This document shows, piece after piece, positions 20,823 through 32,817 of a DNA stretch of 32,817 bases. The notes below the pieces were generated by a model. It was given only the letters and a program-made list of their open reading frames with translations. It did no database searches and had not been told where the DNA came from. Position 1 is the first letter of the stretch, and every line of letters starts with the position of its first letter. Source of the DNA: Stenomitos rutilans HA7619-LM2 (GTDB lineage Bacteria; Cyanobacteriota; Cyanobacteriia; Leptolyngbyales; Leptolyngbyaceae); contig JAHHIE010000069.1 of NCBI GenBank assembly GCA_019358945.1, positions 1 to 32,817 on the forward strand, read 5' to 3'. Position numbers and translations under genes: made by a program.

Positions 20823-21152
20823 CTATTCATTTGCCCCAGTTTCTTTCCCTAAATATACGCTTTTCAATCCCTTCGTTCCCTTCTTGGTCACACCCCAATA
20901 GCGCAAGTATCGGTAGGGTCCATAAGTCTTACCCGTTTTCGCATCAGGAATCAGCTTCAACTCAATGTGCCCTCGACCGCCATGTCGCCCCAACGGTGTG
21001 CCATCCTCCCGCCGCTCTTGGGAGACATCCGATGCTTTCCTTTGTTGGGCTTCTAGCAACCCCGTGATCATGGCTGCTAAATCTTCCAATTCATCATCAC
21101 GCCAATCCTGGAGTTCCCCAATCAGATGTTCTGGTCGGCTTCGGCGTGGCAT
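20823..21152 (-). CDS. hypothetical protein, DUF6788-like
   Basis: The protein has 109 residues. The C-terminal part, GPYRYLRYWGVTKKGTKGLKSVYLG, is the motif of small DUF6788-type proteins common on mobile elements and plasmids. It is preceded by Gly/His-rich DGTPLGRHGGRGHIELKLI and an acidic helical N-terminus (ELQDWRDDELEDLAAMITGLL). Function is unknown; nucleic-acid binding is plausible. Its upstream region holds three TTAGGGAA inverted repeats (21175-21430). Confidence 0.6.
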   Translation of the reverse strand: MPRRSRPEHLIGELQDWRDDELEDLAAMITGLLEAQQRKASDVSQERREDGTPLGRHGGRGHIELKLIPDAKTGKTYGPYRYLRYWGVTKKGTKGLKSVYLGKETGANE

Positions 21153-21618: not shown

Positions 21619-22244
21619 ATGCCAACTCCCATCTACCACATCACGCATCTGAGCAACTTAACCTCCATTTTGGCGATCGCTGGTTTGTGTTCAAATAGCA
21701 CAATGCAGCAACAGGGAATTGGCTATACCAATTTGGCAAATCAAAGCATTCAGTCACGTCGAGCGAGAGTAACGGTGCCCTGCGGCGCAGGGGGAACGTT
21801 GACTGATTACGTGCCGTTCTACTTTGCGCCCCGTTCTCCGATGCTGTATGCCATTCATCAAGGTAATGTCCCAACCTACCTTGAAGGGCAGGAGAGTGTA
21901 GTCTACCTGGTTTCTACGGTTGAAGCTGTGCAGCAAGCCAACCTTTCGTTCGCCTTCACAGATGGACATGGGATTATGGCACTGACCCAGTTCTTTGATG
22001 ATCCGCCGATCTAAATCAGGTGGACTGGCAGGTGATGACCCTCAAATATTGGTTCGATACTCCGGAGGACAGCGATCGTAAGCGACGGCGGCAAGCCGAG
22101 TTTCTAGTGCATCAATTCTTCCCCTGGCAGCTCATTACCGAGATTGGTGTGATGCATCACTTGGTCAAAGCCGAGGTGGAAAAGTGCTTACAGACAGCAA
22201 CCCATCAACCAGGAGTCATCCTGCGACCCAATTGGTACTATTGA
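21619..22244 (+). pseudogene. darT: DarT DNA ADP-ribosyltransferase toxin, frameshifted
   Basis: The frame from ATG 21619 has the DarT (DUF4433) N-terminus: YHITHLSNLTSILAIAGL, GGTLTDYVPFYFAPRSPMLYAI, VVYLVSTVE and FTDGHGIM. It ends at TAA 22012 just after FFDDPP. Inserting one base near 22008 restores DLNQVDWQVM and then KRRRQAEFLVHQFFPW, the C-terminal part with the catalytic Glu, to 22244. Total length would be about 209 residues, normal for DarT. DarT modifies thymidine in single-stranded DNA using NAD. Without the C-terminal segment the toxin should be inactive. Its antitoxin gene follows 12 bp later and is intact. Confidence 0.85.
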
Positions 22245-22256
22245 GGAAACCGAGAA

Positions 22257-23309
22257 ATGGTGATTATGCTGGAGTCCTGTTTGGGGAATTTACTGGAGAC
22301 AGACGTAGAAGCCCTGGTCAACACCGTCAATTGTGTCGGTGTGATGGGGAAGGGCTTGGCGCTGCAATTCAAGCAGGCGTTTCCAGAAAACTTCCAGGAG
22401 TATCGACGGGCGTGCCAGTCGGGTGAGGCGAAGCCAGGGCAGATGTTCATTGTGCCCACAGGTCAGCTAGCAAATCCCCGCTACATCATCAACTTCCCTA
22501 CCAAACGCCATTGGAAAAATCCATCCCGCATTGAAGATATTGAAACTGGGCTGTTGGCACTGATTGAAACGGTCAAGCGATTTGGAATTCGCTCGATCGC
22601 TATTCCACCTTTGGGTTGTGGCAATGGTGGGTTAGCGTGGTCGCGAGTTGCTCCATTGATTGAAGCAGCCTTTGCTCAAGTGCCAGAGGTACGAGTGTTA
22701 ATCTTTGAACCCCCAGCAGCGAAATCAGAAACAGTTACGGCAAGCACCTCTTTTCCACCATTCACCCGTGCTCGTGCCTTGCTAATTGCGCTGATGGAGC
22801 AATATCTGTCGCTGGATTACCCGCTCACAACGCTGGAAATCCAGAAGCTAGCCTATCTGCTTCAGTCAGCAGGTGAACCATTGCGCTTGCAGTTTATTCA
22901 GGGAGAGCAAGGACCTTACGCCGCCAATTTACATCCGGTTCTGCGCCAGTTAGAAGGACATATGATTGAGGGCTACCGCCCTGACGATGAGGGGGCAGAA
23001 ATTAGACTTCGACCAGGAGTTGCTCAAGCTGCCCAGGATTACTTGGCGGATACTCCGGCGACTGCCATTCTAAATCGAGTGACTCGTCTAATCGAAGGTT
23101 ATGAGAGTCCTTATAGTTTGGAAGTGCTGGCGATTGTCCACTGGGTGATGCAAGCAGATCCGCAGGCAGCGGCGAGTGTCGAACGAGCGATCGCTGCGGT
23201 TGAAGAGTGGCAACTAGGGCAACGAAAATCTTTTAAGCCACAGCACGTTAAGCAAGCGTGGCAGCGGTTGCACGAGCAACGGTGGCTCCTGACAGCGGAG
23301 CCTGTCTAA
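22257..23309 (+). CDS. darG: DarG-type macro-domain antitoxin (DNA ADP-ribosylglycohydrolase)
   Basis: The protein has 350 residues. The macro domain (about 1-155) shows VEALVNTVNCVGVMGKGLALQFKQAFP and the PPLGCGNGGLAW loop, the ADP-ribose-binding and catalytic elements of DarG. The C-terminal domain (about 165-345; TLEIQKLAYLLQSAGEPLRLQF, GPYAANLHPVLRQLEGHMIEGY) is the DarT-binding antitoxin part. DarG removes ADP-ribose from DNA and also sequesters DarT. The frame is complete, and an alternative ATG lies at 22266. The toxin is broken, so the pair now seems to be a fossil toxin-antitoxin or phage-defence system. Confidence 0.93.
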   Translation: MVIMLESCLGNLLETDVEALVNTVNCVGVMGKGLALQFKQAFPENFQEYRRACQSGEAKPGQMFIVPTGQLANPRYIINFPTKRHWKNPSRIEDIETGLLALIETVKRFGIRSIAIPPLGCGNGGLAWSRVAPLIEAAFAQVPEVRVLIFEPPAAKSETVTASTSFPPFTRARALLIALMEQYLSLDYPLTTLEIQKLAYLLQSAGEPLRLQFIQGEQGPYAANLHPVLRQLEGHMIEGYRPDDEGAEIRLRPGVAQAAQDYLADTPATAILNRVTRLIEGYESPYSLEVLAIVHWVMQADPQAAASVERAIAAVEEWQLGQRKSFKPQHVKQAWQRLHEQRWLLTAEPV

Positions 23310-24218: not shown

Positions 24219-24491
24219 CTAAGATGGCATTTGAAGACTGATTTGGCTTGCGATCGAGACGACCACGCCCTTTTTCCGTAACTCACCCAGGGCTTTGTAG
24301 AGGTCGCCTTCGTCCAGTTCCCAGCGATTGCAAAAGGCATGAACGTCAATTTTAGGGTTCAGTTTGCCAGGAAAATCAAGCTGGAGGGCAAAGAAGATAT
24401 AGTCGTGATCGCTTGTCAATAGTTTCAGCTCACGAATGCGGAATAGTTCCTCTCTGTTCAAGGTGTAACAACCTACATCAGTCTGTGCCAT
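24219..24491 (-). CDS. small winged-helix-like hypothetical protein
   Basis: The protein has 90 residues. Its C-terminal half (FCNRWELDEGDLYKALGELRKKGVVVSI) has the helix-turn-helix-wing pattern of a winged helix, and the N-terminal half (LLTSDHDYIFFALQLDFPG) is a conserved-looking lead-in that I associate with cyanobacterial plasmid proteins. Function is unknown; DNA binding is probable. The gene is bracketed by inverted repeats D and E of the TTAGGGAAT family. Confidence 0.6.
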   Translation of the reverse strand: MAQTDVGCYTLNREELFRIRELKLLTSDHDYIFFALQLDFPGKLNPKIDVHAFCNRWELDEGDLYKALGELRKKGVVVSIASQISLQMPS

Positions 24492-24568
24492 CGCTTCCTC
24501 TCCTGGTACAACTGTTTGGATTTAGCGTAGCGGATTTCTAGATGAGCCTCAACTGATTCAGGCAGTTT

Positions 24569-24612
24569 TTAGGGAATGCTTTTGGTTAAACTAGCTTATA
24601 ACCATTCCCTAA
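24569..24612. repeat. TTAGGGAATG inverted repeat E
   Basis: TTAGGGAATG (24569-24578) / CATTCCCTAA (24603-24612) are perfect 10-bp arms. Relative to repeat D the tenth position is changed on both sides (A/T to G/C), so the pairing is conserved. It lies 58 bp past the stop of the 24671-24913 gene. Confidence 0.75.
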
Positions 24613-24670
24613 TTCAAGCAGAGATTAACTCCCTCTAAGCTGTTAATACTGAAGTTTCGCCCCTTTTCTC

Positions 24671-24913
24671 CTAATGATGTTTCTCTAACCATGAGGCTAC
24701 AGCTTGCTGTAAAGCTATTTCTGGGGCAATTCCCATCGATTCACATTTCTCGATTAGCACCTCAACCTGATCTTGAATTCCTAGCCAGAATTCGATAGCC
24801 TCCTCAACCCCTTGCTGCTGACTCATTTCGCGTTTAGCACAAGCGACATCTAACGCTATTTTCTTGGATCTAGGCAATCTCCCACGAATCTCCCTTTTTT
24901 CTTCATCCGCCAT
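24671..24913 (-). CDS. ribbon-helix-helix-like small protein, copy 1
   Basis: The protein has 80 residues. RGRLPRSKKIALDVACAKREMSQQQGVEEAIEFWL reads as a basic beta strand followed by two helices, the RHH (CopG/Arc-like) order. The C-terminal helices (VLIEKCESMGIAPEIALQQAVASWLEKH) may be for oligomerization. It is divergent from the KOW-like/HTH unit 1, with repeated CATTTTG sites between them, as expected for an autorepressor. Copy 2 at 28534 has the same relation to unit 3. Confidence 0.6.
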   Translation of the reverse strand: MADEEKREIRGRLPRSKKIALDVACAKREMSQQQGVEEAIEFWLGIQDQVEVLIEKCESMGIAPEIALQQAVASWLEKHH

Positions 24914-24953
24914 AGCAATTGCAGCCTAATAAGCAGGCTCAATTTTCGCATGG

Positions 24954-25011
24954 CATTTTGAGCAAATAACATTTTGCGATATTTACCATTTTGCGGCAAA
25001 TGTCGTATACT
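24954..25011. promoter_or_regulatory. repeated CATTTTG operator sites over a promoter
   Basis: CATTTTG occurs at 24954-24960, 24970-24976 and 24987-24993 (spacing 16 and 17). Two of them are completed to dyads by CAAAT (24963-24967 and 24997-25001). A promoter for the rightward gene fits TTTACC (24982-24987), an 18-bp spacer and TATACT (25006-25011). The sites overlap this promoter, so an RHH-type repressor could block it. Confidence 0.5.
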
Positions 25012-25051
25012 ATTTTAATAAATACAGCTAGCGGAAGCAACTTCTCGATTC

Positions 25052-25344
25052 ATGTTTAGTCACCAACCTCCTTGGACTCCTATCTCCGAAGAAGAGGAAA
25101 CAGTACAGACCCCAGCCAAGTTTAATATTGGCGATCGCGTCTACTGGTGCCATGTTCCTAGTCGGGATTTTGGCATCATAGTAGAGCGATTTTACGGAGC
25201 GGAAGGTAGTATAAAGGCACTGGGATGGCACTACGCCATCCAGCTAGACCCGATAGTCCCTCTTTTGATCACTGCAAAACTGACTATGGCTTTGAGGATG
25301 ATTTGTCCTTGATGGGGCGTGGAGGGGCTGATGCGGTTGAATGA
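25052..25344 (+). pseudogene. SH3/KOW-like small protein, unit 1, frameshifted
   Basis: From ATG 25052 the protein matches unit 3 (28915): FNIGDRVYWCHVPSRDFGIIVERFY and ALGWHYAIQLDP. After LDP, near 25252, the frame shifts by one missing base. In the other frame the sequence goes on as DSPSFDHCKTDYGFEDDL, matching unit 3 (HSPSFAHCKLDYGFEEDL), to TGA 25342-25344. The GDRV...W...DFG strands suggest an SH3/KOW-type beta barrel, often a nucleic-acid or protein-binding fold. As read, the product is cut short with a wrong tail. The restored frame overlaps the HTH gene by 14 bp, exactly as in unit 3. Confidence 0.7.
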
Positions 25345-25597
25345 AGCTCAGGTTCAATTGCTGGAACAGTTTCTGGCGCTACCGCTGCTCCCTCCCGAGG
25401 CTTTCGCTGCTCGCTGGACCCTTAGCTACAGACAAATCAGCCAAATTTGCCACTGTTCAACTTCAACCGTCGAGCACTGGTTTAGCGAGGGCGCAGGAAA
25501 GAGGGCACCTGCCGAGTGTTATCAAAAACTGTTAGCAATCGTTGATTTTCTACTCACTAACAGCGAGTCTATTCGTTATTGGCAGCGGCTTTGGTAA
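25331..25597 (+). CDS. small helix-turn-helix protein, unit 1
   Basis: The protein has 88 residues from ATG 25331, the start that aligns with unit 3 (MRLNEAQVQLLEQFLALPLL against MRLTEAQYQLLRQLLDLPLL). The HTH region is LSYRQISQICHCSTSTVEHWFSEGAGKR, with recognition helix STSTVEHWF, followed by a conserved YQKLLAIVDFLL helix. It is a likely sequence-specific DNA-binding protein and the translational partner of the preceding KOW-like gene. It remains intact although its partner is frameshifted. Confidence 0.7.
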   Translation: MRLNEAQVQLLEQFLALPLLPPEAFAARWTLSYRQISQICHCSTSTVEHWFSEGAGKRAPAECYQKLLAIVDFLLTNSESIRYWQRLW

Positions 25598-25732
25598 TAA
25601 GTTAAGGAATGTTGCATTGGAGGTTGTCAGAATAACAGCCCATTTGTCGTCTCAACAGGGATTCTTTGGGTGTTGTTCTCCCTGACGCCCAAGCAGCTTT
25701 TAATAACGACAGGCGTGTTTCATCGTGCTGTT

Positions 25733-26080
25733 ATGAGTGACTCTAATCAACAATCATTTCCCCCTTTGCCTCTTCCTATCTATTCCGATCCACAACTGGC
25801 TATCACCTCCATTTGTTTCCCAGCGTATCTGCCAGAACAATTTGCATTGCCCAGGTTTGGGATTGGACAAAGGGTTATGTGGTCACAGGTTTCGAGCAAT
25901 GGGTTTGGCAGAATCGTTGGACTTGTGTTTGCCCAAAGTGTTTCCGTTGTTGCAGTTGGCTACCATTACGCGATCGCTCTGGATGAAGACAGCCCCTCAC
26001 GGGCTGACTGTGTAGCAGACTGGGCATTTGAGGATGACTTGGAACTTGTCTCACCTCACATCCACTCAGTCCATAGTTAG
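25733..26080 (+). CDS. SH3/KOW-like small protein, unit 2
   Basis: The protein has 115 residues from ATG 25733 (the frame opens earlier, at 25670, without homology). The core FGIGQRVMWSQVSSNGFGRIVGLVFAQSVSVVAVGYHYAIALDEDSPSRADCVADWAFEDDLE follows the same pattern as units 1 and 3: GxRVxW, a Gly-rich turn, V.AVGYHY and L-D-x-D-S-P-S. It is more diverged and has a longer Pro-rich N-terminus. The HTH gene follows 11 bp after the stop. No RHH gene is attached to this copy. Confidence 0.65.
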   Translation: MSDSNQQSFPPLPLPIYSDPQLAITSICFPAYLPEQFALPRFGIGQRVMWSQVSSNGFGRIVGLVFAQSVSVVAVGYHYAIALDEDSPSRADCVADWAFEDDLELVSPHIHSVHS

Positions 26081-26091
26081 GTGAATAAAGT

Positions 26092-26427
26092 ATGTACCCA
26101 ACGACGGAGCAGTGGCAACTATTTGAGCGTTACAGGACCTGTCCACCCCCCATGTCACCCCAAACGTTTTTACAGAATTGGGAGATTGACTATCCTGATA
26201 TTGCTCGATTAGTTGGTGTGAGCCGACATACTGTAGCGCATTGGTTTAGCACGGGAGCCGGAAGCCGTCCTGCTCCAGAACACCACCGTCGTCGATTGGC
26301 GACGATTGATTTCCTCTGGCGCAATCGCGATCGTATTCCTTACGAGTTGCTGGATGAATGGTGTGGATTGCCAGCAGAGCCAGAGATACTAACAGAGCCA
26401 GAGACAACAGACGAACCGTCAAAGTAA
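26092..26427 (+). CDS. small helix-turn-helix protein, unit 2
   Basis: The protein has 111 residues. The HTH IDYPDIARLVGVSRHTVAHWFSTGAGSR aligns with units 1 and 3 (HWFSxGxGxR signature), with a shared helix RRRLATIDFLWRNRDRIP. An added C-terminal tail is acidic and repetitive (PAEPEILTEPETTDEPSK). It is a probable DNA-binding partner of the preceding KOW-like protein. Confidence 0.7.
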   Translation: MYPTTEQWQLFERYRTCPPPMSPQTFLQNWEIDYPDIARLVGVSRHTVAHWFSTGAGSRPAPEHHRRRLATIDFLWRNRDRIPYELLDEWCGLPAEPEILTEPETTDEPSK

Positions 26428-26462
26428 TTGAGAAAGTTGACAATCACCGCATAACTACTCGA

Positions 26463-26530
26463 CAAATCGATGTCGTGGCGACACAGATCGATTGCTGGAT
26501 GGCAACCAGTCGAGTTCAATGAACAGCAGC
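26463..26530 (+). promoter_or_regulatory. conserved structured leader A upstream of the Trp-rich repeat protein
   Basis: This 68-nt segment matches 46 of 68 positions of 30595-30662, which precedes the paralogous gene. It contains TGTCG-TGG-CGACA (26471-26483), TTGCTG (26492-26497) able to pair with CAGCAG (26524-26529), and TTCAATGAA (26515-26523). Stem positions are kept while the loop sequence diverges. It is a candidate cis-RNA or protein-binding site. Confidence 0.55.
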
Positions 26531-26571
26531 TAATTTTTGCAACTGCACTCTGAGCCTTATTTTTTCCAGTT

Positions 26572-27483
26572 ATGAAGCAATCCAAAAGATTCTCCTCCCC
26601 TGAACTATTTCCTGAGGACCCGCCTGAACTGCCTGACCTGGAACTACCTCTCGCCTGTTGCACTGCTCAAGAAATTGTCGCGGCGCTGATGTTACAGCAT
26701 CACAATACAAGGTTGATGCAGCAGGTGCTCACTGACCTTGAAGCGAACGCTCATACGTGGGACGCATTCCTTCTGGCACCATCCTTGCCAACAGTCGATA
26801 GCAGCGCCGATCGAGGAAGTTTGATGTGTCTGCGAGACTTACAGACTTGCTGGAACGCAGATACACTTTACATCTTGGCTCGAAATGCCAATACTGCAAG
26901 ATCGCTTCAAACAATCGCTCAGGCATGGAATTGCTCAGATATCACCCTCTATCCTCCCAAACGGATGAAACGGTTAACAGGGGTAGAGGGCGCAAAGCGC
27001 TTAATTTCGACGCGTTGGCATTTCCCAGAGAATATTGAGACCAGGATTGATTTTGACCAAATCCCTCATCCTGACTCTCCAAAGTGGGTACTAGATGAAA
27101 TGACTGTCTTGGAAGAGTGTTCACCTCAACATCTGATGGCAGAGTTAATGATAAAAGCCGACTCTAAATGCTTCCACGCACAAACAATCCTAAAGGAACT
27201 GCAAGATTATTCTCATTGGTGGCGCAGCTTCGTGCTGGCACCGCCACTCCCTGACACAAAAACAGGCATGACTAATCGTTTAAATATACTGCAACAATTG
27301 CCCACAGCCTGGCGTGATGATTGCCTTTACATCTGGGCATGGGATGACACCGCTGCCAGAAATCTGCGATTGCTAGCTCAGAATTGGTATTGTGGTGAGG
27401 TTACAGCGATCGCTGGAGATGAAGCTGCTCGATTGCTGAATGTCCCAAATGCCTCCCCGATTATAGTAGTGAGGTGGCTGTGA
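26572..27483 (+). CDS. tandem Trp-rich repeat protein, paralogue A
   Basis: The protein has 303 residues and I recognise no family. It is built of two related halves (about 25-150 and 178-303). Each reads C-T/S-x-Q-x-hh-A-x-Lh, then a short helix, W-x-x-F-x-L-A-P-x-LP, a Leu-rich helix (CLRDL / ILQQL), a W followed by D-x-LYI, a helix with AR, and W-x-C before a final strand ending in RW. No transmembrane segment or known catalytic motif is visible. The conserved Trp and Cys suggest a folded binding domain. It is paralogous to 30689-31585 over the full length, and both carry the same upstream leader. It follows HTH unit 2. Confidence 0.7.
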   Translation: MKQSKRFSSPELFPEDPPELPDLELPLACCTAQEIVAALMLQHHNTRLMQQVLTDLEANAHTWDAFLLAPSLPTVDSSADRGSLMCLRDLQTCWNADTLYILARNANTARSLQTIAQAWNCSDITLYPPKRMKRLTGVEGAKRLISTRWHFPENIETRIDFDQIPHPDSPKWVLDEMTVLEECSPQHLMAELMIKADSKCFHAQTILKELQDYSHWWRSFVLAPPLPDTKTGMTNRLNILQQLPTAWRDDCLYIWAWDDTAARNLRLLAQNWYCGEVTAIAGDEAARLLNVPNASPIIVVRWL

Positions 27484-27613
27484 GCATTAGCTTGCAAGTG
27501 AGTGGCTGCCAATCGCCACCAAAAGGTAACTGGGCTTTGAGCCGGACAAAGACTCCTTTTTCGGTTTAGCCAATGTCCTAGAATAAGGAATAACGTTTGC
27601 TCGGTCTTCCATT

Positions 27614-28399
27614 ATGGACCAGACACTAACTAAACAGGAGATTCCACCTCAGTTTCCTGACCATACCCAACTGCCAGATTCGGATGGGACGTTTGTGAAG
27701 AATTTTCAGGAGCATCCGCAAAGCCTGATATTGACCGATTCGATCGCGCCCGTTCTGCAACGCTTGCACCCCGATGGACAGTACGCGATCGGGCAAGACT
27801 GCGGCATCTATTGGCGGGAGACAGACCCACCGGAACGTGGGGCAGAAGCCCCCGATTGGTTCTATGTCCCGAATGTTCCACCTCGGTTAGGCAGTCAGAT
27901 TCGGCGTTCGTATGTGCTATGGCGAGAGTACATCACGCCCATCATTGCTTTAGAATTTGCATCGGGAGACGGCAGCGAGGAACGAGATCAAACCCCACTA
28001 TCCCGCTTTGAGGCGAGAGAATCTGGTAAGCCTGGTAAGTTCTGGATTTACGAACAAGTGATGCGAATCCCGTACTACGGCATTTACCTGATCACCAGTG
28101 GTCAGTTTGAGTTGTATCACTTAACTGACACAACTTATCAACGGATGAGTCCGAATGAGCGAGGTCATTACAGAATTGCCCCAATGCAGGTGGAGTTGGG
28201 CGTTTGGCAAGGCGTTTACCAGAATCAGCCCGAACAACCTTGGCTGAGGTGGTGGGATGGGCAGGGCAATCTGCTGCTAACGGGACAAGAAGCCGCTCAG
28301 CAAGAGCGCCAGAAGCGATTGCAGTTGACCGAGAAGCTGCGATCGCTCAGTTCTGAGCAACTGGCAGCATTGGGCATTACTCCCGAGGACATAACTTGA
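27614..28399 (+). CDS. Uma2-family endonuclease-like protein
   Basis: The protein has 261 residues with the PD-(D/E)xK fold of Uma2 (DUF820): PDWFYVPNVPP holds the first acid, IIALEFASGDG the Glu strand and KFWIYEQVMRIPYYGIYL the Lys/Tyr helix. The C-terminal tail (EKLRSLSSEQLAALGITPEDI) is typical of cyanobacterial copies. Uma2 genes are present in dozens of copies in such genomes and have been proposed to act on DNA; the role is not settled. The ALEFAS in place of the usual EVxS is a mild variant. The gene is probably monocistronic. Confidence 0.85.
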   Translation: MDQTLTKQEIPPQFPDHTQLPDSDGTFVKNFQEHPQSLILTDSIAPVLQRLHPDGQYAIGQDCGIYWRETDPPERGAEAPDWFYVPNVPPRLGSQIRRSYVLWREYITPIIALEFASGDGSEERDQTPLSRFEARESGKPGKFWIYEQVMRIPYYGIYLITSGQFELYHLTDTTYQRMSPNERGHYRIAPMQVELGVWQGVYQNQPEQPWLRWWDGQGNLLLTGQEAAQQERQKRLQLTEKLRSLSSEQLAALGITPEDIT

Positions 28400-28452
28400 G
28401 CGGTGTGGCGTGATTCGGAAGGTGATTCCTTAAAACTGCACAATGTCTATTA

Positions 28453-28499
28453 ACTTAGGGAATGTTTTTGTCGGGTTGAGCTTGCTTTATTCCCTAAGT
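28453..28499. repeat. TTAGGGAAT inverted repeat F
   Basis: ACTTAGGGAAT (28453-28463) / ATTCCCTAAGT (28489-28499) are perfect 11-bp arms, 25 bp apart. It lies between the convergent Uma2 and RHH copy 2 genes, 34 bp past the RHH stop. Confidence 0.75.
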
Positions 28500-28533
28500 C
28501 ACTACCAACAGAGGGGTAGAAGCGACTCCAGTA

Positions 28534-28743
28534 CTACTGCGCCTCTCCTTCAGAACGGCGTGGTTTCGAGCCAGTTCGTTGGGTCGCTTCATTTTCTTCA
28601 ACGTATTGCTGAACGAACTCTACGATCGCCTCATTCATACTCGTTGCGTTTAAGGCACAAGCTGCTTTGAAGCGATCTCGCAAAGATTTACTGGGCAGGT
28701 AAACCTTGAGAATAGCTCTCTCTTTTTCTTCATCTGTAGACAC
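28534..28743 (-). CDS. ribbon-helix-helix-like small protein, copy 2
   Basis: The protein has 69 residues. ILKVYLPSKSLRDRFKAACALNATSMNEAIVEFVQQYVEE shows the RHH strand (KVYLP), a first helix and a second helix with SMNEAIVEFV as in Arc/ParG-like regulators. The C-terminal tail is charged and probably flexible. It is divergent from KOW-HTH unit 3 across a 171-bp gap with strong TTAGGTG palindromes, which are probably its own operators. Confidence 0.7.
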   Translation of the reverse strand: MSTDEEKERAILKVYLPSKSLRDRFKAACALNATSMNEAIVEFVQQYVEENEATQRTGSKPRRSEGEAQ

Positions 28744-28759
28744 GGCAACTCACAGGTCG

Positions 28760-28853
28760 TGCACCTATTACTGCTTTAGGTGCAATTATCCTCTTAAATT
28801 TCGATAGTTTTAGTTTTAGGTGTATTAGATGCAAATGCATCTAATACACCTAA
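28760..28853. promoter_or_regulatory. TTAGGTG palindromic operators between RHH and KOW-HTH unit 3
   Basis: The perfect inverted repeat at 28816-28833 / 28836-28853 has 18-bp arms starting TTAGGTGTATTAGATGCA with a 2-bp centre. A second dyad is TGCACCTA (28760-28767) / TAGGTGCA (28777-28784). Four copies of the TAGGTG half-site thus lie in 94 bp. RHH proteins bind such repeats cooperatively. The long palindrome could instead form a hairpin or cruciform. Confidence 0.65.
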
Positions 28854-28914
28854 GAGATATAGTTAAGAAGCTAGTCTAACTTGCATTGCCAACTTAAAGC
28901 TTGTACAGGAGAAA

Positions 28915-29208
28915 ATGCAAAATCGAGCTAAGCCAGCACAATCCCTAACGGTATCAGACAACAATTCGTTGCAAGTCCCTAGATTTAACCTAGGCGATCG
29001 CGTTCGCTGGTTTCGAGTGCCAACCCAAGATTTTGGGGTAGTGCGCGATCGTTTCTATTGCTTGGAGAGCAGTGTGCAAGCTGTAGGGTGGCACTACCAA
29101 GTTCAGCTTGATCCTCATAGTCCTTCCTTTGCTCACTGTAAGTTGGACTATGGTTTTGAAGAAGACCTTGAATGCCTTGAGCAGAAGAATTTAAATGAGG
29201 CTAACTGA
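28915..29208 (+). CDS. SH3/KOW-like small protein, unit 3
   Basis: The protein has 97 residues and AGGAG at 28907-28911. The core is FNLGDRVRWFRVPTQDFGVVRDRFY, then VQAVGWHYQVQLDPHSPSFAHCKLDYGFEEDLE. It is a short all-beta barrel by pattern, followed by a conserved acidic end; I do not recognise a named family beyond the SH3/KOW look. It is the intact reference copy for unit 1. The stop overlaps the HTH gene by 14 bp, so the two are translationally coupled and probably work together. Confidence 0.75.
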   Translation: MQNRAKPAQSLTVSDNNSLQVPRFNLGDRVRWFRVPTQDFGVVRDRFYCLESSVQAVGWHYQVQLDPHSPSFAHCKLDYGFEEDLECLEQKNLNEAN

Positions 29209-29458
29209 GGCTCAATATCAACTGCTGAGGCAGCTTCTTGATCTGCCGTTGTTGTCGCCGGATGCTTTCCTAGCGCGGTGGACTTTAACGTATCTAGAGG
29301 TAAGCCAGATTTGCTGCTGCTCAGTTTCAACCGTTGAGCATTGGTTTAGTGAGGGAACTGGACGACGATCGCCCGCTGATAGTTACCAAAAGCTACTCGC
29401 TGTAGCTGACTTCTTGCTGATGCACGGCGAGACAGTGCAGCACGTTTGGCAGAGTTAG
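29195..29458 (+). CDS. small helix-turn-helix protein, unit 3
   Basis: The protein has 87 residues. The HTH is LTYLEVSQICCCSVSTVEHWFSEGTGRRSP, with an adjacent SYQKLLAVADFLL helix; over most of its length it is very close to unit 1. The start overlaps the KOW-like gene. About 8-15 bp after the stop, AAGTTAAGCAATGT (29466-29479) matches AAGTTAAGGAATGT after unit 1, so the duplicated segment extends past the gene. Confidence 0.75.
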   Translation: MRLTEAQYQLLRQLLDLPLLSPDAFLARWTLTYLEVSQICCCSVSTVEHWFSEGTGRRSPADSYQKLLAVADFLLMHGETVQHVWQS

Positions 29459-29498
29459 CCGCAGAAGTTAAGCAATGTAACGCGAGTAATTGTTCATT

Positions 29499-29563
29499 TG
29501 ACAGGTCATCTGTCAGCTTAATAGCAGTTTAGCTAAACCATCCGCTCACTTCACAAATTTGTG
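29499..29563. promoter_or_regulatory. three palindromes upstream of the primase-like gene
   Basis: TGACAG-GTCAT-CTGTCA (29499-29515), GTTTAGCTAAAC (29527-29538) and CACAAATTTGTG (29552-29563) lie in 65 bp, each perfect in its arms. They could be operators for the HTH or RHH proteins of this block, or parts of a replication origin; nothing in the sequence decides between these. Confidence 0.45.
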
Positions 29564-29658
29564 CCGTAACAACAGAACTTGCTTGCTTGAAGAACAATTT
29601 GTCACCAGAATCTGAAAGATACAGATTCATGAAGGGGAGAATAGTTCAAGGGAAATCC

Positions 29659-30579
29659 ATGCGCGTTCAACTCCCACTCCCATTAAAGCAATTCGTTAGA
29701 AGCCAACCCTACCTTTACCAAAAGCTTTGCTTCTGGGCAGGCAAACGAGGGGTAGATGACCCAACTGAACAGGTGAATCAATACCTCACCCAATTGGTGC
29801 TTCAAGCCGATATCGAGGGTGATAATGCCGCCATACTCCAGGAGTGGGCAAAGGTGCTTTCCCCTCAGGAGCGGATCACTCTGGCGCAACTCAGTCCAAT
29901 TCTAATCAGAGATTATCCAGGTGGCTCAGGCTGGTACGCTCTGCAAAAAGGCGAGTACAGCGTCATGGGCGAACCTGTACTGCATGAAATTTGTCATCAA
30001 GGAGTGCCACAGGCAATCATCACCCGTAACCGCTACGATTGCTTGATCCTGAATGCTAGGAACTTGCTGATTGTCGATGTAGACATTGGAGGTCTAGATC
30101 CGGCTGACTATCCAGATTGTGCGGCGAACTGTCAGATTGCCATAAGTGTGCAGCAAGCTCTTGCAACTCTGGACGCGATCGTTCAACAGTTCCCCCATTT
30201 AGGGTTTCGTGCCTACCGAACCCTAAATGGCTTGCGCTACCTCTGCACAACCCGACCCTTCGACCCGTTAAGCCGCACAACCCATCGGTTGATGCACAAT
30301 CTTTACGTTGACCCGTTGTATGGTCGGTTGTGCAAATTCCAGGCAACCTTTCGAGCACGCCTGACTCCCAAACCGTGGCGAGTGGAAATGGATGAGGGGA
30401 CAGGACGGTTCACTTACGATCGCACCACAGGACTGGTGTTGCCAGAACAAACCTCTTACGCGGTTTGCCATTTACTCAAGATTGTTGGACAGATGGCAAT
30501 TCTCCCGCAATTTGAGTCAGCGATCCAAGTGCATGATTCTTTTTGTCGAGTCGAACAGTTAGATCTGGATCTGGCATGA
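29659..30579 (+). CDS. unknown protein, possibly archaeo-eukaryotic-primase-like
   Basis: The protein has 306 residues from ATG 29659, chosen for AAGGGA at 29648-29653; starts at 29629 (ATG) and 29587 (TTG) are also open. A helical N-terminal part is followed by LLIVDVDIGG (hhhDhD), FRAYRTLNGLRYL (a Gly-Arg turn after a strand) and CKFQATFRARLTPKPWR, a highly conserved-looking basic block. The DxD strand and the later Gly-rich turn are reminiscent of archaeo-eukaryotic primase motifs I and II, but no SxH is present. Primase-like is therefore only a hypothesis. It lies after KOW-HTH unit 3. Confidence 0.6.
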   Translation: MRVQLPLPLKQFVRSQPYLYQKLCFWAGKRGVDDPTEQVNQYLTQLVLQADIEGDNAAILQEWAKVLSPQERITLAQLSPILIRDYPGGSGWYALQKGEYSVMGEPVLHEICHQGVPQAIITRNRYDCLILNARNLLIVDVDIGGLDPADYPDCAANCQIAISVQQALATLDAIVQQFPHLGFRAYRTLNGLRYLCTTRPFDPLSRTTHRLMHNLYVDPLYGRLCKFQATFRARLTPKPWRVEMDEGTGRFTYDRTTGLVLPEQTSYAVCHLLKIVGQMAILPQFESAIQVHDSFCRVEQLDLDLA

Positions 30580-30594
30580 AATACACCGACTTCA

Positions 30595-30662
30595 CAAATC
30601 CATGTCGCGGCGACAGAGATGGGTTGCGTCCATCCTGACAATTCTCTTCAATGAAATGCAGC
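30595..30662 (+). promoter_or_regulatory. conserved structured leader B upstream of the Trp-rich repeat protein
   Basis: This is the counterpart of leader A. It contains TGTCG-CGG-CGACA (30603-30615), GGGTTGC (30621-30627) able to pair with GCAGCCC (30658-30664), and TTCAATGAA (30647-30655). The distance from TGTCG to TTCAATGAA is 44 nt in both leaders. Confidence 0.55.
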
Positions 30663-30688
30663 CCCGTATTTGAGCTGCACCATCCCGC

Positions 30689-31585
30689 ATGAATCCATTC
30701 CAGAAACGAACCCTCTCAGACACAGGACTTGATGACATTCTCAATCTCCAAACCGACCTCGTTCATTGCACGGCTCAACAGATTATGGCGACCCTGATGT
30801 TGCATCATCCTGATTCCCCTACTATGGGTCAGGTTTTGAGGGATTTGAGTCATCAGCCGAATTGGTGGGATGCGTTTGCCATGGAACCTCCACTTCCCAC
30901 AACTAGTCAAGCCGCCGACCCTGCCGCTTTGGTGTGCTTACGGGATTTGGGTATGGAGTGGAATACCAATACTTTATATGTGCTGGCACGCGGTCATCAG
31001 TTCGCGCGATCTTTAAAAGCGATGGCTCAAACCTGGAACTGCACCCAGATCACCCTTCTCCCCACTCAGTTGACCGCGCATCTACTAGGCAGGAGGCGCA
31101 GGCAGAGTCTGATTGTGGCATACTGGCAGCGCTCCAGATTTATGACAGAGGAGATGGATTTCGCCACGACCTATGATTTGACCCAACCCCCTCAGTTCGA
31201 TCCGCTGCCGCAACTCGGTGAGTGTTCACCGCAACTGCTGATGGCAGGATTACTGCTGCGGCATGGCTCCCAACGGTTCTGTGCGCCGACCATTCTGCAG
31301 GATTTACAGACACATTGGCAGTGGTGGTATAGCTTTGTTTGGGGACCGGCTTTGCCCAACCCGGAAACCGGATTAGCTAATCGATTACAGGTGCTATGTG
31401 GGTTACCCAACGTTTGGAGTGGGGATTGTTTGTACCTCTGGTCACGCAACCGTGATGCAGCTATTGGGCTGCAAAACCTGAGTCAAAACTGGGCGTGCAA
31501 AACCGTCACGGTTCTTGATAGCCCAGAAACTGCGCGCTTGTTGGCGATACCCAAAGGACCTCCTGTCGTGGTGGTGTCCTGGTGA
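30689..31585 (+). CDS. tandem Trp-rich repeat protein, paralogue B
   Basis: The protein has 298 residues, full-length similar to 26572-27483. The two internal repeats (about 26-145 and 173-298) share HCTAQQIMATLMLHH / ECSPQLLMAGLLLRH, NWWDAFAMEPPLP / WWYSFVWGPALP, CLRDLGMEWNTNTLYVLAR / LCGLPNVWSGDCLYLWSR and AQTWNCTQIT / SQNWACKTVT. No catalytic motif or signal peptide is visible. Its upstream leader is shared with paralogue A. The function is unknown; a two-domain ligand- or protein-binding scaffold is the most one can infer. Confidence 0.7.
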   Translation: MNPFQKRTLSDTGLDDILNLQTDLVHCTAQQIMATLMLHHPDSPTMGQVLRDLSHQPNWWDAFAMEPPLPTTSQAADPAALVCLRDLGMEWNTNTLYVLARGHQFARSLKAMAQTWNCTQITLLPTQLTAHLLGRRRRQSLIVAYWQRSRFMTEEMDFATTYDLTQPPQFDPLPQLGECSPQLLMAGLLLRHGSQRFCAPTILQDLQTHWQWWYSFVWGPALPNPETGLANRLQVLCGLPNVWSGDCLYLWSRNRDAAIGLQNLSQNWACKTVTVLDSPETARLLAIPKGPPVVVVSW

Positions 31586-31593
31586 CGGAGAGC

Positions 31594-31611
31594 AGACACC
31601 TGCCGGTGTCT
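31594..31611 (+). terminator. hairpin between paralogue B and the next gene
   Basis: AGACACC-TGCC-GGTGTCT is a 7-bp stem with a 4-nt loop, 9 nt after the stop codon. No clear U-run follows, so termination is uncertain; it may only attenuate or stabilise the transcript. Confidence 0.35.
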
Positions 31612-31685
31612 TGCCCCGGAATGTGGTGGCCTTATGAGGCTTTAATTTCAATCACGGGTATCTAAAAAGTCGGGGAGGAATGAGA

Positions 31686-32750
31686 ATGCCACTGTTTGCT
31701 ATACTGCACTGCAATTCTGAGGGACTGCACCCCGGTAGCTGTACCCTGATTGCGGCTCCCTCCCTAATGGCGATCGCCCAACACATTCTGGATCATCCCG
31801 CTCCCTGGCGACCACTATTAACCGATGCCCAGCCTGCTGACGGTGATCGGCGCAGTGTCTGGCATCGGATGCAAGCGGATGTCCTCACACCCGAGGCACT
31901 CTTGGCACTGCTGAACCAAACCACCTTGGAAGCTGACTATGCTGAGATGCTGCGAATTGAGTCGATCGAGATTCAATCCCTGGATGCTTTCCAGGCTAGA
32001 ACCCGTTGGGTTGGTTCAGAGGATGAAACGCCAACGGCAGTAGCAGATGTCAACGCCACAACTAAATTCGCCATGGGGCAAGGACTGGCGGCGCATCTGC
32101 AACAACAGCTTGCCGAACAAATGCAAGGAATTCAGCACCAGAAACTGGCTTTTACAAACGCTGAAGTAAACTTCCTGAGTCATCTCCGCCTTCTTCTAGC
32201 AGCAGATGCACGATTGCTCTTGCAAGGACCTGATTTTGCAGCCTTTGTGCGATCGATGTGCGATCGCATCGCTACCCAAGAAATTGAGTTTCCAGGCTCA
32301 TTTGACGTGGCTCCGAGTCCTGCTGACTGGCAATTGCATCGCCTTTCTACTCCGCTGGAATTGCACATTCTTGAAACCATTGAATCCGATCCGGGTGAGT
32401 CTGCAGCAAATTCCGTTCACCTTCGAGTGAAACTAGGAACTTGGCAGCAAACCCTCACTATTCCCACCCTCCCGACATCATCCAGTGTAGATTCTGACGA
32501 CCAGATTACAGGGAGGGTACAACAATGGCGGCAGATTAGGAATCAGTTGCAGACAACCATGGCACAACTTCCGATAGCACCTTATTCACAGGTTGAGTTA
32601 GAAGAATTGGCTTGCCTCCTGACATACATTGGCGACCTATTTCACATTGACCCAGTCGTCAATCCCTTTTATCAGATGACAATGAGGATGGGCTCTTCCG
32701 AGCTTTTGGTGAAACGCTACAATGGAAGAAATAGCATGAGAGACTGCTGA
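31686..32750 (+). CDS. hypothetical protein (354 aa), unrecognised
   Basis: ATG 31686 is preferred: GGAGG (31674-31678) stands 7 nt before it, while ATG 31680 would be too close. The N-terminal part (FAILHCNSEGLHPGSCTLIAAP, PWRPLLTDAQPAD) is a compact alpha-beta region. The middle is helical and Gln-rich (AAHLQQQLAEQMQGIQHQKLAF), and the C-terminal half has a long helix and a TYIGDLFHIDPVVNPF segment. No known domain or catalytic motif was recognised. It is on the strand of the whole KOW-HTH/repeat-protein block and is followed 11 bp later by the start of another gene. Confidence 0.65.
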   Translation: MPLFAILHCNSEGLHPGSCTLIAAPSLMAIAQHILDHPAPWRPLLTDAQPADGDRRSVWHRMQADVLTPEALLALLNQTTLEADYAEMLRIESIEIQSLDAFQARTRWVGSEDETPTAVADVNATTKFAMGQGLAAHLQQQLAEQMQGIQHQKLAFTNAEVNFLSHLRLLLAADARLLLQGPDFAAFVRSMCDRIATQEIEFPGSFDVAPSPADWQLHRLSTPLELHILETIESDPGESAANSVHLRVKLGTWQQTLTIPTLPTSSSVDSDDQITGRVQQWRQIRNQLQTTMAQLPIAPYSQVELEELACLLTYIGDLFHIDPVVNPFYQMTMRMGSSELLVKRYNGRNSMRDC

Positions 32751-32761
32751 TTTCCAACTTG

Positions 32762-32817
32762 ATGACTGCTGAGATCAAACAATTTTTTCAACATCTCGTC
32801 CCTGGTTGCAACTCGCT
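32762..32817 (+). CDS. start of a further gene, cut by the window edge
   Basis: ATG 32762 opens a frame to the window end: MTAEIKQFFQHLVPGCNS. It begins 11 bp after the preceding stop, and the frame reads as coding. Too little is present for a family assignment. Confidence 0.45.
   Translation, partial: MTAEIKQFFQHLVPGCNS

Follow-up and report, generated by a model that had tools for sequence, protein, structure and literature searches.

The main regulator types named for type V-K CRISPR-associated transposons (CAST) in section 7 of PMC9938897 are CvkR, a MerR-type protein of 139-185 aa, and two Arc types, which belong to the ribbon-helix-helix (RHH) class. BrxR-type WYL regulators of defence islands provide a second comparison, 48% of them being co-localised according to the abstract of PMC9122601. 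A block of genes that resembles both in part occupies the right-hand end of contig JAHHIE010000069.1 (C61) of the cyanobacterium Stenomitos rutilans HA7619-LM2 (assembly GCA_019358945.1; genome G000, 7.28 Mb in 119 contigs), and this entire contig of 32,817 bases is the window analysed here. Rightward from 24.2 kb, the block consists of HTH24 and RHH1 on the reverse strand, the pairs KOW1-HTH1 and KOW2-HTH2, the Trp-repeat gene TRP1, a Uma2 gene, RHH2 on the reverse strand, KOW3-HTH3, the "primase-like" gene PRIM, a second Trp-repeat gene, TRP2, and a final gene, LAST, where HTH stands for helix-turn-helix. The names KOW and primase serve as labels only, because hidden Markov model (HMM) support for them is absent. 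The contig stops 67 bases past LAST, and since the window is the whole contig, the block is truncated there. We interpret the block, tentatively and with somewhat less than even confidence, as an effector operon that a cyanobacterial mobile element keeps under repressor control, with defence as its most likely outcome.

Compared with CvkR, Arc_1 and Arc_2, the likeness lies in small regulators, an RHH type among them, that stand divergently beside mobile CRISPR genes (PMC9938897). An HTH-family relative even takes the position of CvkR, upstream of cas12k in reverse orientation, in two other genomes (L045:9014-9355 and L056:1371-1718; L numbers denote loci outside the window). The window differs in that its HTH proteins measure 87, 92 and 111 aa, outside the 139-185 aa of the MerR type, are paired with KOW genes, and score below the MerR_1 cut-off (best 12 bits for HTH1, against 21.6); no cas genes were found among the window proteins scanned. 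The CvkR chain is not listed among the PDB matches of the HTH profile or of the L056 protein, in a PDB set that may not hold it, and the window-type HTH proteins at L045 and L056 are possibly a further type of V-K CAST regulator. The likeness to BrxR is that one regulator family accompanies many unrelated defence systems (PMC9122601). Here, however, the unit is an RHH and KOW-HTH cassette, no WYL domain was matched by Pfam among the block proteins scanned, and every one of the best 80 of 104 HTH relatives is cyanobacterial. A literature search combining cyanobacterial KOW domains, helix-turn-helix proteins and CRISPR found no paper, others led to the CvkR and BrxR work among further papers, and no wider novelty search was made.

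The central observation is that a core order, in which an RHH gene diverges from a KOW-HTH pair that is followed by a second pair and then by PRIM, TRP and LAST, is found again in two further genomes. Lyngbya sp. HA4199-MV5 (L055) carries the row DarT, DarG, RHH (reverse), KOW-A, HTH-A, KOW-B, HTH-B, PRIM, TRP and LAST, with identities to the window of 77% for PRIM, 59% for TRP and, for LAST, 30% by tblastn or 35% in the alignment. On a 243-kb contig of genome G328 (L166), relatives of HTH24 (83%) and RHH1 (80%) precede KOW-A, from which both diverge, and HTH-A, KOW-B, HTH-B, PRIM, TRP and LAST follow. The letters refer to two subtypes into which the window pairs fall, A (pairs 1 and 3) and B (pair 2). 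The three KOW-HTH pairs of the first-pass annotation exist, at 25052/25319, 25670/26092 and 28915/29195, but are not of one kind. Subtypes A and B both precede PRIM in the window, L055 and L166; HTH-A and pair B are present in L160, which is cut by a contig end. Both subtypes also occur on plasmid3 of Leptolyngbya NIES-3755, together with relatives of TRP and LAST.

Set against L055 and L166, the window has an extra stretch, TRP1-Uma2-RHH2-KOW3-HTH3, that lies between HTH2 and PRIM and accounts for its repetitive appearance. The repeats that led the first-pass annotation to propose a multi-copy modular system are real, but they reflect an enlarged form of a locus for which L055 and L166 show two pairs and a single Trp-repeat gene. 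DNA identity between the two A-type copies is 66% across 277 aligned bases, which makes an old date probable for the duplication or second acquisition. All genes listed at first pass are present where they had been placed, and the consistent co-occurrence in other genomes proposed as a check was found for the core, both as the order in L055 and L166 and as KOW-HTH with divergent RHH in many loci.

Within the core, the forward-strand pairs are KOW1 (25052-25312) with HTH1 (25319-25597; 71% to the Leptolyngbya NIES-3755 plasmid, 74% to L055), KOW2 (25670-26080; 54% to the same plasmid, 64% to L055) with HTH2 (26092-26427; 81% to the plasmid), and KOW3 (28915-29208; 61% to the plasmid) with HTH3 (29195-29458; 80% to Drouetiella, L052), which overlaps KOW3 by 14 bases. 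Divergent from KOW1 lies RHH1 (24671-24913, reverse; 56B_RHH 31.6 bits, cut-off 27.2; 80% to L166), and divergent from KOW3 lies RHH2 (28534-28743, reverse), which is ParG-like (22.5 bits, cut-off 21.4). The larger genes, all on the forward strand, are PRIM (29587-30579), TRP2 (30689-31585; two repeats of ~130 aa, 59% to L055) and LAST (31680-32750), which combines a ~110-aa N-terminal domain with a ~220-aa C-terminal region; stand-alone relatives of the N-terminal domain exist at L014:9259-9618 and L011:28577-28906. In the extra stretch, TRP1 (26572-27483, forward) likewise has two repeats of ~130 aa, and a one-repeat relative (L011:29957-30355) aligns to both halves. Uma2 (27614-28399, forward), a putative endonuclease (PF05685, 53.6 bits, cut-off 27), says little by its presence, as 71 Uma2 matches are listed in its own genome.

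The pairing of KOW with HTH was assessed by scanning an HTH alignment against the contigs of one genome per species (84,980 species), which returned 104 relatives; all HTH-locus counts given here refer to the best 80 of these. The counts are uncorrected for shared ancestry, and 18 HTH clusters at 75% identity are reported alongside; some entries repeat one another (L040 = L087; L042 = L073/L096; L043 = L074; L154 = L055, at 100% identity), and single genomes lie behind several loci (L157, L159 and L166 in G328; L155 and L165 in another). The 80 loci contain 84 HTH domains and 52 KOW domains, the latter in 50 loci, and for 52 of 52 KOW domains an HTH lies 8-229 bases downstream on the same strand. 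In four of the 52 (L097, L098, L100, L114), KOW and HTH are joined in one open reading frame (ORF) of 332-406 aa. Searching by KOW identified six further genomes of 244, in all six of which HTH adjoins KOW; three of the six are also among the 80 HTH loci. A divergent RHH gene stands upstream in 30 of the 50 loci with KOW and in none of the 30 without (Fisher 6e-9, relatedness uncorrected; L052 and L055 entered by hand), or in 7/13 clusters with KOW against 0/5 without. A small protein of ~65 aa accompanies 50 of the 80 loci, with 46 of 51 copies at most 1 kb downstream of HTH. KOW-HTH is a real unit. A Fischerella gene (L010:10107-10565) tried as a KOW member proved unrelated and was dropped from the alignment.

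Family assignments within the unit are uneven. RHH1, RHH2 and Uma2 pass their Pfam cut-offs, which places both RHH proteins in the RHH DNA-binding group, while the pair HTH genes match HTH_23 below cut-off only. For KOW1-3, Pfam gave no match up to E 1 and a PDB profile search gave one sequence at E 0.74, so that the KOW identity proposed at first pass, and with it KOW/SH3 membership, finds no support in Pfam, PHROGs, NCBIfam or PDB profiles (KOW2 and KOW3 in the PHROGs and NCBIfam scans). The tight spacing of these pairs, whose ORFs overlap or adjoin, could suggest that KOW and HTH form a toxin-antitoxin-type pair repeated for element addiction. The presence of DarTG next door and the weak best PDB match of the HTH profile, the MbcA protein (E 0.058), point the same way; fusion of KOW and HTH into one ORF suits joint action better, and no toxin family was found for KOW in Pfam and PDB, or by PADLOC for KOW3. 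We regard this alternative as quite improbable.

A divergent RHH gene and KOW-HTH genes ahead of larger genes on the same strand, combined with an 18-bp inverted repeat, fit an autoregulated repressor module that would hold an effector operon. That repeat, perfect and with a 2-bp spacer, lies in the RHH2-KOW3 gap (28816-28853; two window matches, with 0.02 expected by chance), and the RHH1-KOW1 gap (24914-25051) carries CATTTTG three times, at 24954, 24970 and 24987, spaced 16-17 bp; both are candidate operators. The first-pass statement that control sequences recur holds to the extent of these two elements, but nothing common to both gaps was seen by eye. Promoter-like sites (9 against 8.9 in shuffled sequence) and terminator-like sites (10 against 7.7) are near the shuffled level. 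The arrangement of the genes leads us to infer a regulatory role of the small proteins over the large ones. The divergent RHH protein, together with one or two KOW-HTH pairs, would repress the promoter by binding to the RHH-KOW gap; once repression is lifted, PRIM, TRP and LAST would be made together. PRIM would then act, probably as a nucleotide or nucleic-acid enzyme, with LAST and TRP as its presumed partners, which adjoin it and may contact it, and the most likely outcome would be anti-phage or anti-invader defence of the cell or of the element.

The association of PRIM with LAST extends beyond the three complete blocks. A PRIM core alignment produced 20 matches in 16 of 368 class genomes; with the window's own match and a 28-aa match in G399 excluded, 18 matches in 14 genomes remain, some at loci truncated by contig ends. 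A LAST relative lies at most 1.3 kb from PRIM in 9 of the 18, in 8 of the 14 genomes (L154, identical to L055; one PRIM of L157; L161, L163, L164, L165, L166, L167 and L168). KOW or HTH genes occur within 10 kb in 6 of the 18 (L154, L155, L158, L159, L160, L166), and TRP near 2 of the 18. The full-length PRIM and a first two-row alignment recovered one of 244 phylum genomes, its own, and a LAST profile, less sensitive than the tblastn queries applied in the loci, recovered three of 244, its own included and one weak. On the 3.1-kb contig L168, PRIM and LAST form one open frame, possibly as the result of a deletion or of joining during assembly.

Several further observations concern these larger genes. 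Four copies of PRIM are present in genome G328 (L157, L159, L166), distributed over contigs C3 and C6. In a second arrangement (L163, L164, L167), a tyrosine recombinase and a KCLKC-type protein (by eye) accompany a PRIM that lies between two LAST-family genes; L165 shows this in part, with one LAST-family gene, and Cas12k is nearby in L163 and L164. A protein starting with MAKSRKLEDLM follows LAST in L055:7192-8189, in pieces, and in L168:1655-2353 (both by eye), and a relative of it could lie beyond the end of the window contig. Single-repeat relatives of the Trp-repeat proteins, of ~170 aa (L047-L051), were found in seven other genomes (six of family f7, one of f11), and the one member scanned has no Pfam or NCBIfam match.

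The first-pass annotation called PRIM primase-like. Archaeo-eukaryotic primases (AEP) carry a motif I consisting of DxD after a hydrophobic strand, and a motif II with a histidine, sxH or SxxGxH. PRIM has the first, with D164 and D166 in 18/18 sequences, and its DxD is followed, in a low-confidence model, by a helix and then a strand with TxxG, as in AEP/Prim-Pol proteins. It departs from them at motif II, where all 18 have the arginine R217 of T212xxG215xR217 in place of the histidine, and no profile match or confident model relates it to them. The 18-sequence alignment is invariant at D164xD166 (DxD), Y210xT212xxG215xR217 (YxTxxGxR), R256-A-R258-L259 and P261-K262-P263-W264-R265 (together RARLxPKPWR), and H316-D317; a remote, shorter phage relative (L175) retains DxD, TxxGxR and HD but not PKPWR. 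No primase model in Pfam, PHROGs, NCBIfam or PADLOC matches PRIM, nor does any useful PDB sequence, and comparison by hhalign with an AEP-like 655-aa family gave a probability of 0.4%. With regard to an RRM-like catalytic fold, AlphaFold2 models have low confidence (mean predicted local distance difference test, pLDDT, 35.8 with two sequences and 46.6 with five), and Foldseek gave a best E of 0.043, none being at or below 0.001. Prim-Pol (PF09250) was not found in the window's own genome either, and the primase identity is not supported by these results. Because of the invariant DxD and the basic motifs, it is plausible that PRIM acts on nucleotides or nucleic acids.

Relatives of PRIM are also carried by IMG/VR contigs of 137 and 197 kb. 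On the first (L132:2692-8348), the relative lies ~1.5 kb from RIIA/RIIB-type genes; on the second, a 40-aa stretch resembling the beginning of DarG (68%), which by this match does not amount to a whole gene, lies just past it (L133:8629-8748). Viral scans with the KOW, full PRIM and HTH alignments returned no relatives.

Replication or partition would be favoured by the ParG-likeness of RHH2, the plasmid settings and the resemblance of PRIM to primases, and these lead to a rival explanation in which the block is a plasmid maintenance module: the RHH proteins would be ParG/CopG-like, KOW-HTH would control copy number, PRIM, assisted by LAST and TRP, would be a divergent primase or replication initiator, and chromosomal copies would be integrated plasmid pieces. 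The plasmid or integrative setting suggested at first pass is supported by relatives that lie on named plasmids or in the vicinity of ParB, integrase and Tn7-like genes. On pMIC7113.07, the neighbours of KOW-HTH include ParB, a ParA-type ATPase, a DUF3854 gene and an integrase; on a Fischerella plasmid, PRIM adjoins an integrase near a ParA-type gene (by eye; annotated as cobyrinic acid a,c-diamide synthase); in L166, ParB-like and integrase-like genes (by eye) accompany the full block. Proteins of 610-655 aa that carry AEP-like LLDID and SSYSxGLHLYFPF motifs (by eye) form a family also observed near KOW-HTH (L052:4176-6143, L053:10632-12542, L054:2837-4669), and it counts in favour of plasmid maintenance as well; for its L052 member, no Pfam match passes the cut-off and the NCBIfam matches are weak (PrimPol_Msp, E 0.03, far below cut-off). 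Against this stand several facts. RHH2 passes the Pfam ParG cut-off, but no ParF/ParA partner and no known Rep gene were found by Pfam among the block proteins scanned. PRIM has neither the motif-II histidine nor a profile match to the AEP-like protein, four copies sit on two contigs in G328, and the one plasmid record that carries PRIM is outside the seven plasmid records that match KOW3. We regard plasmid maintenance as on balance unlikely, but as the main alternative.

An effector operon with a defensive outcome is favoured because PRIM and the HTH family recur near CRISPR, restriction-modification (RM), DISARM-type and Tn7-like genes, and because DarTG stands beside the block in two genomes. 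In the 80 HTH loci, Cas1/Cas2 occurs in 12, Tn7-like genes in 15, type I RM in 15, RAMP-like and/or HNH genes in 8, tyrosine recombinases in 7 and Cas12k in 3; at least one of Cas1/2, Tn7-like, Cas12k, Hsd, RAMP-like/HNH, GmrSD and tyrosine recombinase genes is present in 46. All 15 Tn7-like cases belong to one HTH cluster, and Cas1/2 is spread over 7 of the 18. As a background, Cas1 gave 165 matches in 116 genomes, weak fragments included, or ~0.3 per Mb (for an estimated 4.7 Mb per genome) and less than 1% of 20-kb stretches, against 12/80 loci with Cas1/Cas2, a rough comparison as it sets HMM matches in other genomes beside tblastn counts in loci; TniB, for which weak matches swamped the results, did not serve as a background rate. 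PADLOC identified Cas10d and Cas7d in L043, a Cmr/Csm-like protein in L044, Cas12k and DndB in L045 and a V-K TniQ in L041. Around PRIM, 72 of 181 listed ORFs were scanned with PADLOC and Pfam, and the families shown (the 25 commonest of 149 and of 99) include Cas12k (2), TniQ (2), DrmD, DrmA, PD-Lambda-1, BrxHI, double-GTPase families and phage integrases (6).

Several findings weigh against a defensive effector operon. The listed defence and mobile genes are absent from 34 of the 80 HTH loci, and Cas1/2, Cas12k, Hsd and GmrSD alone account for 29 of the 80. Such genes occur in 28 of 50 loci with KOW and 18 of 30 without; the association thus belongs to the HTH family as a whole, which slightly lowers the defence-type explanation. 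The 16-17 Nostoc-type loci have different common neighbours and nearly all are without KOW. At L156, none of the block partners searched for was found near PRIM. Pfam gave nothing useful for TRP1, TRP2, PRIM or LAST, and sequence libraries, PDB and models assign no enzyme family or fold to PRIM, TRP or LAST. Because a phage relative of PRIM lies near RIIA/RIIB-type genes, PRIM need not be defensive, and with KOW1 and DarT frameshifted the window copy may be decaying.

PRIM, TRP1, TRP2, LAST, KOW2 and KOW3 have no PHROGs or NCBIfam matches, and PRIM, TRP1, TRP2, LAST and KOW3 none in PADLOC. Among the eight block proteins submitted to PADLOC-DB 2023 (RHH1, RHH2, HTH1, KOW3, TRP1, TRP2, PRIM, LAST), the sole match was mad1 for HTH1 (E 0.046), which assigns none of the eight to a known system. 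The best PDB match of LAST, sc-apCC-4 (E 0.0017), is not useful, and TRP likewise has no useful one.

The cassette also appears ahead of other genes. In L122:917-5159, RHH (reverse), KOW-HTH, RAMP-like, HNH and HTH24 genes stand directly before cas12k, which is in two pieces, and a cassette of the same type precedes type I-D cas10d/cas7d in L043:9737-16477 (= L074). The RAMP-like genes (by eye) belong to a family whose members measure 206-212 aa, carry a GDGRSIGYGRFEL-type motif C-terminally and stand beside an HNH gene (L043:10734-11372, L040:8353-8973); the one in L043 matched nothing in Pfam, PADLOC or NCBIfam. KOW-HTH further precedes a GmrSD relative near PRIM in L155, and in L115 it has type I RM genes in its neighbourhood. 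These arrangements suggest a regulatory cassette with interchangeable cargo, in which RHH, KOW-HTH and HTH24 would be general silencers and PRIM-TRP-LAST one cargo among several; PRIM-LAST without KOW-HTH, within the stretches covered at L163, L164, L165 and L167, agrees with it. Some specificity is nevertheless suggested by the A and B pairs before PRIM in the window, L055 and L166, and by HTH-A with pair B in L160. We consider this rather unlikely; it may hold alongside the effector operon.

Upstream of the block lie DarTG genes, with a DoxX gene between them and HTH24. They match the DarT and DarG models: a DarT-like toxin gene (21619-22014, forward; PADLOC DarT 7.4e-46) and a DarG-like macrodomain antitoxin gene (22257-23309, forward; PADLOC DarG 2.2e-124; Pfam Macro). 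Relatives of DarT (82%) and DarG (67%) adjoin the block in L055. The pair differs from DarTG in being a neighbour of the unnamed core rather than its member, and in a frameshift that leaves DarT at 131 aa against 208 aa in L055, its C-terminal part lying in another frame (21619-22250) while DarG is open. KOW1 is also frameshifted, near its end (25230-25320), with the missing C-terminal part in another frame. Both frameshifts may reflect decay or assembly. Together with the position of the block at a contig end, they could mark the block as the decayed remains of a mobile element that no longer has a function. PRIM, TRP1, TRP2, LAST, HTH1-3, two KOW genes, RHH1 and RHH2 are open, however, and the order PRIM, TRP, LAST is kept in L055 at 77%, 59% and 30% identity. 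Decay of the entire block appears the most improbable of the explanations.

Two further genes flank the core. HTH24 (24219-24491, reverse) encodes a 90-aa PadR-like regulator (Pfam PadR 17.1 bits, under the cut-off of 27), with relatives in L166 (83%), L053 (80%) and near cas10d in L043 (66%). A 109-aa protein starting with MPRRSR (20823-21152, reverse) could mark the outer limit of the element; in the retrieved loci that were searched, relatives of it were confined to L053 (74%) and L166 (77%), in each case close to RHH and KOW-HTH.

It is possible, and in our view doubtful rather than probable, that PRIM-LAST(-TRP) is an undescribed cyanobacterial effector system built round a new nucleotidyltransferase-like family that is also present in phages, and that RHH with KOW-HTH(+HTH24) is a common mobile-element control cassette placed before Cas12k, type I-D Cas10d, GmrSD and PRIM. 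If true, this would add a regulator cassette common to many cyanobacterial defence and mobile loci, type V-K CAST included, as well as a new effector family, PRIM-LAST, with relatives of PRIM in phages.

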